Shown here piece by piece: positions 58,038 to 61,000 of a stretch of 64,000 bases of DNA. Below the pieces are notes generated by a model, which was given only the letters and a program-made list of their open reading frames with translations, was not told where the DNA came from and did not search any database. The position numbers were made by a program, and so were the translations under genes. The DNA lies in assembly GCA_947561715.1 (NCBI GenBank), contig OX387201.1:7210001-7274000 (forward strand), in the 5' to 3' direction. How positions within the stretch are numbered: position 1 is the stretch's first letter; each line of letters starts with the position of its first letter. Source of the stretch: Ascidia mentula. Lineage: Eukaryota; Chordata; Ascidiacea; Phlebobranchia; Ascidiidae.

Positions 58038-61000
58038 ATTTTCAAAAGGAACCAGAAAACATACCACAAATTATCCCTGGTAAAAAAAATTCTCAATGGG
58101 TTATACGACCTTTGACCTACCCAATCCATCTACAGCTCCCCAGCCACTGACGAAGCAACTCATTCCAACGGGGAACCGATAACCTTGAGGGGGAACGCAG
58201 ATTGGCTGAATTTCCTTCGTGAAGGTCAAAGACGAGTCAAGCTGTTTAAAAAAGATTTACTCAAAGTTAAACCCAACATATTGTTACGTTGCAAGATCGG
58301 AAGCGACTCAAACCTTCATGAGGCTCACATCGTAATCGTACGACATATCGTCGGGATAAAGTTCGTGTTGGATGATTTGCACGACTTTCCGTTTCACGGC
58401 AGGCGGCTCGTTTCGCTGGGATAGCGCAGAAGTGCCCGCGAAAACCGTCCACAAAGTTGCTTTGGGGTTTCTGAATGAGTAAAACAAAATTTTGCAACTC
58501 GGTGTTGAAAACAAACACTTTTGAATAAAACCCAAGCGGGGTGTACGCACGCATACCACAATGTAACGAACAAAATAGTGAATATTAGATGAGGGCACAC
58601 TGGGTCAAACTTACGCATGGGTGCAGTGCGCAGCTGTTAAAATCCAGTTGTTGAGGATTATAGAAGCTCCGCAAGTTACTCCTTTTCCCTGCACCCACAG
58701 ACTGACCTAGCAGCAAGGAAAGAACCTTTTAGTGTGTGGTCAAATGTAACTGAGTGCACTACGACACGAAGAACAGAAGGCACATTTATAGCATAGCGTA
58801 TACCATTCAGTAAAAGTGTAAACGCATTCGCAGACCGCTTGGTAGAAATTATAACGTTTTATAAACTTAAAATTTTCATTTACAACTAATGGTTAGAACA
58901 TGCAAAACAATAAGGTACAATAGCAAAATAATTTTAAAAAATTAAGAAGCTTTGCAAGTGTGGACCTCAGCCGAGAATTATAATCGAATTTTACCTGCCA
59001 TGGAACAACGGCGTCAGTTCCTCCCACCACCCTCGGTTGGGCCCTGTTAGCGTCTGTGATGCCAGAATCGTTATACACGCTAGTACCGTCAGGGTAGTTT
59101 TGTCTCTGTGTGCATAAACACATACCCAGGTGGTTGTCATATCGAGCCATTGGGTCTATTGCTTTGCGTATCCGACTATGTCATAAACTTAACAAGTTGG
59201 GCGTTACCAGCTGGTTACACGTTTCCAAAATGCTAACCGTTTTTTGTTATTGAATATATGTTATTCGTGGAGACGTTATTGAATAAATACCTGCCTTACA
59301 ACTCATTTACAACAATAACTGTAGTTACAGATTCAAACATGGCGAGTATGACGAGTTTTTCGTTGCCACAAATGGAGATAAAAAGATAAATGCACGATAT
59401 AATGTTTCTTGGATGATTTATTTTTGATGACTCATTACCGGTCATGCGTTTTGGTGAAAATTAAATTCCATTGCTCTTGCCAACAAAAGGTTTTGGCCTC
59501 GTATGATGATGGTATGCGAAAAATGCACTTTATACTGGCTGTATGGCTGTATGCGGATACGTACAGCCTTGCTGACAGGCAATCACTCAACGCTAAATTT
59601 ACTTTCTGCGCGTTTCCATTAATAAAAGGATATGTGTGACAGGAAGTGGTAAGTTTCATAACCTGCCACAAACGGAAGTGTACACACAGGGTTACCAGAA
59701 TTCCGAAGAATTTAATGAAAGTATGACTGAACACAAGGACAACTTATAACAACGAGCGGCCAAGACAAACATAAATTAATCTGGAACAGCAGAACATAGG
59801 ACTAAATACTACCAGGCAAACAAAGACTAAAATAACCAACCAAAATTTGTTTGATTCGTGAAATAAAGCATTCCTATGCAACCGAAAATTAATATTTTAT
59901 TCTTACCTGCCAAGGGTATTGGCGTATGTTTGCTGGTTCGGAACCGACTATCCGGCTTGTGATTCGAATCCTGGAGTCGTTCACGGGCAACGTTGGGTTA
60001 GTGGAGAACGTGTTCGTGACGTGGGAACGAACGTTTACCGAACTTTTCGGTAGATATTGAGTCGGAAAAACTCCACAGTACAACGCTGGAATTTTAGAAA
60101 ACATACATGTAGTAAATATATGACAAAATGGGTATTTATAATTGTTCAAGGATCGGCTAAGTTCAGCTATGGTGGCGATGCAACATTGATTGCACAATAT
60201 TTCTTTGTTCTTTGGCGGACCACAAATACACAAAAGGGGCAAACACTCTGTAGCGGTTTGTAAGAAAATTTTGTCCAACATGCGGAAATATTATCACGGT
60301 TAAAGCAAACTGGTGTCAAAAATCATCAATTTAAATTTGTAAAACGGATCTCTTTAAAGCACCAGTTTTTCGCACAACATCGTCTGTCGCTATTACGAAT
60401 AAGATGTACATTTACTCCAACGGAGAATAAAAAATCGCTTACTTTGATTGAGGCGTATATCAGTTTTAGGCACTGTTACTGTTACTGTCGATGTCGCTGT
60501 AGCGTGTGTAACACCTGCGATACAAAATCAGCAATATAGTGTTAAATGCTGTACGTATTGCTGAATTAATTCGCCCAAATATTCAAAGTTGCACAAACAT
60601 GGGCGAATTTCGGACTTAATCCAGATTCATTTGCATAAAGCGAGCGGTTGTAATTTTTGTTGCATGCAAACCAAAGGGCACAACGGAAATTCCAAAGTCG
60701 AAAAATCACTTACTGACAGCAGTGACAATTTCGATTGTCGGAGGAGGATCATTGCCAGACTGATTTCCGAACACAACTGAACAAAATTACGGAACAAAAG
60801 TAAAGTAAAACAGAAGCGTAAGTTAGCATAACAAAAATATTCAAATCCCAACATGCAAATAATCACAGACACGATCGTATGCCGCCAACTGATTTTGTTT
60901 CAAGATTTTTGCCGATAATTTTAAGTTTGGCTAATTTTACTCCTGATAATGTGGGATTATGGTTTCTTGCAAGAAATAACGTGCCTCATGTTTTGTTCTC

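Follow-up and report, generated by a model that had tools for sequence, protein, structure and literature searches.

Gene B, one of two tandem serine protease genes in the window (the whole stretch of 64,000 nucleotides analysed here, G000:C69:7210001-7274000), contains two consecutive exons, E1 and E2, that each end in a zymogen activation motif. The gene models and the comparison with paralogue A suggest that B encodes a type II transmembrane trypsin-like zymogen in which E2 would be a cassette exon and splicing would pick the activation site, a reading to which we give roughly even chances. The genes and the exons of interest are the following, with an arrow marking the bond that would be cut in activation motifs.

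Gene B, 56197 to 62961, minus strand: predicted type II transmembrane S1A serine protease; 11 coding exons, 587 aa.
Gene A, 50495 to 55152, minus strand: tandem paralogue of B; 10 coding exons, 584 aa.
B exon E1, 59907 to 60085, minus strand: linking Cys and activation motif R↓IVGS; phase 1 to 0; 15 residues from I16 to Q30.
B exon E2, 58995 to 59105, minus strand: 111-nt extra exon with R↓VVGG; phase 0 to 0; 12-residue spacing.
B first common catalytic exon, 58615 to 58706, minus strand: VSLW...AAHC, starting in phase 0 in the gene model.
B further catalytic exons, 58470-58314, 58241-58121, 57691-57543 and 57009-56853, minus strand: from the gene model, with DACQGDSGGP.
A exon E1, 52771 to 52925, minus strand: homologue of B-E1 with an eroded activation site.
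A exon E2, 52516 to 52632, minus strand: phase 0 to 0; 12-residue spacing.

In the proposed mechanism, E2 would act as a cassette exon between the ordinary activation exon E1 and the catalytic exons. Skipping of E2 would give a zymogen that is cut at ITSR↓IVGS and carries the standard 15-residue N-terminus. Inclusion of E2 would place the productive cut at AQPR↓VVGG, give a 12-residue N-terminus and turn the E1 site into internal propeptide sequence. Paralogue A, which has its sole site in E2, keeps an intact catalytic domain, so a site in E2 is probably enough for activation. The splicing of E2 would then be a choice of activation site and perhaps of the activating enzyme, as the P4 to P1 residues ITSR and AQPR differ and different activators are possible. 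That both isoforms are produced, that both can be activated and that their activators differ we infer from the sequence. A fuller version, which we hold tentatively and regard as something short of probable, is that a 111-nt exon swaps cleavage site and N-terminus with the catalytic domain unchanged, that the cell would in this way pick the activator, that the E2 form would activate with its 12-residue segment and that A, fixed in its dependence on E2, would be a case of subfunctionalisation.

Both genes were modelled exon by exon with GT/AG introns and a frame that is open throughout, and their exon layouts are alike except that A has one stem exon fewer. Pfam Trypsin (PF00089) scores 193.3 bits in B and 190.3 bits in A. 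AAHC, DYDVSL and GDSGGP are all found in the catalytic domain of A and B, with His, Asp and Ser of the trypsin domain in place, and the two domains are identical at 148 of 225 aligned residues. We take AAHC in the 58706-58615 exon to contain His57, and the later catalytic exons of B presumably supply Asp102, Cys122, Asp189 and Ser195, with DACQGDSGGP around the last two. The motif DAC(Q/E)GDSGG in both proteins presumably puts Asp at position 189, which would mean cleavage after Arg or Lys. Each protein starts with a long N-terminal tail and has one clear hydropathy peak at the end of exon 1 (residue 192 in B, mean 2.43; residue 214 in A, 2.34), with the next peaks at 1.16 and 1.0. A type II transmembrane topology is predicted from this peak. 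No SRCR, LDLR, SEA or CUB domain is found in the stem by Pfam at E 0.001, and at this threshold the only match besides Trypsin is an overlapping DUF1986, which is over its cut-off in A and under it in B. Since these are the only domains recovered, we call the proteins TTSP-like and assign them to no named TTSP subfamily. Downstream of A, an open frame on the minus strand (47238-48032) matches the Pfam ribosome recycling factor PF01765 with 62.3 bits and is perhaps mitochondrial. The genome as a whole contains two Glyco_hydro_6 matches above the family cut-off, against none in 14 control genomes; this agrees with a tunicate source, since tunicate cellulose synthase includes a GH6 domain.

Translation and gene models agree that the two consecutive exons of B each end in an activation motif followed by Trp-Gln in phase 0, as the original prediction had it. 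Three sites in the window (A-E2, B-E1 and B-E2) combine an activation motif with an immediately following GT donor, versus none in 300 Markov-1 random windows; the triple is not chance. The predicted series of two activation sites is obtained in frame when E1 and E2 are both included in the B model. The form with E1 alone, also predicted and starting IVGS as a protease, is likewise frame-compatible, with the 58706-58615 exon starting in phase 0. As E2 runs from phase 0 to phase 0 and E1 carries R↓IVGS, skipping of E2 keeps the frame and leaves a second cleavage site. The broader claim that either exon can join the next one is correct, as both join the 58706 exon in frame, but E2 cannot replace E1. 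Both E2 and the 58706 exon start in phase 0 and would break the frame after exon 3, whose end is in phase 1; E1 is therefore required, and E2 is the one that can be skipped. Given these splice sites, the in-frame transcripts are E1 plus E2 or E1 alone. Mutually exclusive use of E1 and E2 is ruled out by the same mismatch between the end of exon 3 and the start of E2. Cysteines are present in LYCGV in E1 and in PICVPP in the catalytic domain of the gene model, and a disulphide would presumably tether the catalytic chain through the E1 cysteine. Because E1 holds this tether cysteine, the E1-only form and the form with both exons keep the tether.

The two forms differ at their predicted N-terminus. 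The activation segment of E2 is three residues under the canonical length in both A and B, and the alignment of the E2 form with matriptase has a three-residue gap after VVGGTDA. For B, Pfam Trypsin matches the E1-only form from position 1 with 204.3 bits and the form with E1 and E2 from position 11 with 195.7 bits. Splice-site strength was considered as a predictor of E2 skipping and rejected as not discriminating: in a small home-made matrix of 19 donors and 19 acceptors (leave-one-out), the E1 donor ranks 1st, the E2 donor 4th and the E2 acceptor 13th of 19, with no outlier. The B-E2 donor region is also part of a 37-nt imperfect inverted repeat (70%) that pairs 58968-59004 with 51276-51312, downstream of the last catalytic exon of A; this pairing is probably chance.

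Within the N-termini examined, the 12-residue spacing is found only in A-E2 and B-E2. The distance from I16 to Q30 is 15 residues in 45 of the 48 other complete N-termini of this genome, 16 in 3 of the 48 and 12 in none. This sample is not exhaustive, as 150 of 777 genome candidates were scored and the loci were taken from the N-terminal matches listed. Spacings were counted with a regular expression on the loci, and rows without a protease N-terminus were dropped by eye, which left 41 others with 15 residues and 2 with 16 (L041 and L058). For 9 of the 40 loci first taken the expression gave no usable match; 8 of these 9 have a Pfam N-terminal match. Read singly, the 8 missed loci give 15 residues in L037, L040, L046 (whose N-terminus begins with Phe) and L048, 16 in L053 and 12 in none; for L028, L044 and L054 an intron splits the N-terminus, so that its first two residues lie outside the exon, and the remainder fits 15. 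The match in L056 is not N-terminal. Twenty further loci, picked since an exon seems to begin directly after the WQ position, were read over 5 kb each: one activation exon is present in 9 (all with 15 residues), none in 11 and two in 0. The 16-residue N-termini are located on G000:C67 at about 8.25 Mb (L041 and L058) and on G000:C70 at about 11.45 Mb (L053), an example being VIGGTAVTSTSTAPWQ. Many similar matches to the last trypsin exon on G000:C71, at about 0.69-0.96 Mb and 14.3-15.2 Mb, suggest a large protease expansion.

One locus of this survey allows the order of events to be addressed.

Gene C (L055), G000:C1:13514400-13519900, about 13.514-13.519 Mb: outgroup to the A/B pair by identity.

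The catalytic domain of gene C is identical to that of A at 101 of 220 residues and to that of B at 102 of 220, compared with 148 of 225 between A and B; being farther from both than they are from each other, gene C is placed outside the pair on identity alone. Its activation exon has the phases of E1, a length of 158 nt and 15 residues from I16 to Q30, and is followed by a 411-base intron and the catalytic exon. No second activation motif is found in the gene C locus by regular expression. Among 41 fifteen-residue N-termini of this genome, the 15-mer of gene C has the top score against B-E1. The activation site of gene C reads PVA↓IVGG; as P1 is alanine and not arginine, a trypsin-like activator would leave precisely this bond uncut. 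L082 shows a similar departure at P1, with SN↓IVGG. Since the 15-residue spacing is general in the sample and gene C has an E1-like exon alone, we conclude from these comparisons that E1 is the ordinary, ancestral activation exon. E2, with a 12-residue spacing seen only in A and B, would then have been added before the A/B split.

These data bear out two further points of the original prediction. The duplication is older than the split, as A and B have the E2 phases and the 12-residue spacing in common and one activation exon was found in the outgroup. The first exon of A does contain, by gene model and alignment, the eroded activation site described, and with gene C keeping its single E1-like exon this agrees with the loss of one site in A. 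With 12 residues to compare, E2 may be a copy of E1 or of an exon of another gene. No further pair, and thus no third gene with an E2-like exon, emerged from six-frame searches of the genome (196 Mb in 79 contigs) with B-E1, with B-E2, and with B-E1 and A-E2 each extended by the following exon; these searches scored best candidates only and have a short reach, as two of the queries recovered nothing but themselves and missed the A exon.

The strongest competing explanation is that E1 and E2 are always included, that the E2 site alone activates and that the E1 motif has become either a relic or a linker, sensitive to trypsin and trimmed on activation. We consider this a real possibility, albeit a somewhat doubtful one. 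In A and B alike, E1 and E2 are flanked by usable splice sites and preserve the frame, as constant inclusion would require. The state of paralogue A points in the same direction: with its E1 site eroded, A can be activated only through E2, and would have no activation site without it. In addition, residue 19 is glycine in 40 of 41 N-termini and serine in B-E1, which could be early decay.

The divergence between the two genes is difficult to reconcile with a relic. A-E1 and B-E1 are identical at 18 of 51 residues, and A and B differ at 51 of 67 fourfold sites of their catalytic domain, beyond Jukes-Cantor saturation. With 0.65 as the lower 95% bound of this proportion, a calculation by hand puts the distance near 1.5; under equal rates, each branch would then have a length of about 0.75. 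Despite this saturated divergence, B-E1 keeps R15, I16, V17, G18, P28, W29 and Q30 together with their spacing, where a relic should be eroded like A-E1. In neutral simulations from B-E1 with 400000 replicates each, the motif is kept at a branch length of 0.75 in 182 (lenient) or 28 (strict), at 0.5 in 1383 or 452, at 0.25 in 17642 or 10418, and at 0.1 in 106748 or 86847. The test presupposes equal rates in A and B and no other constraint on the codons, and the branch length is uncertain as the sites are saturated. From the low neutral retention we conclude that selection has probably acted on the B-E1 motif over a large part of the time since the A/B split.

For a trimmed linker the arginine would be enough, and I16 to Q30 with their exact spacing would not be needed. 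If E2 is always included, the WQ of E1 runs into RQNYPDG and not into VSLW, so that the stretch behind the arginine would not serve as an N-terminus. That this stretch is kept nevertheless argues that an E2-skipping form is made, and such a form would be the best explanation for selection on I16 to Q30 of B-E1. The exon choice originally proposed thus has indirect support from the near-canonical N-terminus kept in B-E1 under saturated divergence, but the atypical residue 19 speaks against it.

It is also conceivable, though in our view improbable, that B mostly uses E1 alone, with B-E2 rarely used or decaying, and that A switched to E2. E1 is canonical in form and gives the better Pfam match, its donor is the strongest of the 19, and E2 falls three residues short of the usual 15. 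A decaying exon would hardly be expected to retain R↓VVGG...PWQ, an open frame, its phase and its splice sites after saturated divergence, as B-E2 does, and the exon of E2 type is the sole available site in A. The original prediction further raised an alternative start just upstream of E2.

Intronic ATG of B, 59148 to 59150, minus strand: continuous in frame with E2; unsupported as a start.

That translation from this position yields a short protein starting in E2 is highly improbable. The ATG, like a second one at 59123, reads in frame into E2 with no stop, but it sits in intron sequence before the acceptor. In A, no such ATG is present in the interval from the upstream stop to E2, and in-frame ATGs ahead of a stop probably often arise by chance. 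The product would lack the E1 cysteine and the exon-1 hydrophobic segment, with no hydrophobic signal by eye.

The cassette reading of E2 would be of interest beyond this gene pair. Zymogen activation sites are usually fixed, and the rewiring of cascades is generally attributed to a change of enzyme and not to splicing of the site. If both isoforms are made, B would provide a compact route by which tissues or stages could differ in the wiring of a protease cascade, with the tandem paralogue A as a ready control. The E2 exons of both genes also probe how far chymotrypsin-fold proteases tolerate a departure from the usual 15 residues between Ile16 and Gln30. We found no description of a protease with duplicated activation exons among the titles and abstract openings listed from open-licence PMC.

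With the E1-only form of B as query, the top PDB matches by sequence are 5lyo, 3p8f and 8vis, which makes matriptase and TMPRSS11D the closest proteins of solved structure. Similar to matriptase (ST14) and the HAT/TMPRSS group, A and B have an N-terminal hydrophobic segment, a C-terminal S1A domain and a Cys before an R↓IVGG-type site. Unlike these proteases, they have no recognised stem domain, a long N-terminal tail and a second activation exon with a 12-residue start. In the MASP1 gene, which encodes MASP-1 and MASP-3, splicing decides which activation segment is joined. There, however, whole protease domains are swapped, whereas in B the choice would be between having and lacking an activation exon, and both forms share one catalytic domain. 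Duplicated exons combined with alternative splicing also diversify a protein of protease networks in serpin genes, e.g. PpSerpin-1 (PMC12758981). In the serpins, exon duplication acts on inhibitors, whereas B is a protease zymogen with a candidate cassette exon. Among ascidians, HrTTSP-1 is described as a sperm protease, a type II transmembrane protein whose serine protease domain is C-terminal (PMC9265791). HrTTSP-1 is a protein of 337 kDa with 23 EGF-like and 2 ricin-B-lectin domains (PMC9265791). A and B differ from it in showing no such Pfam domains and in having only 584 and 587 aa, respectively.
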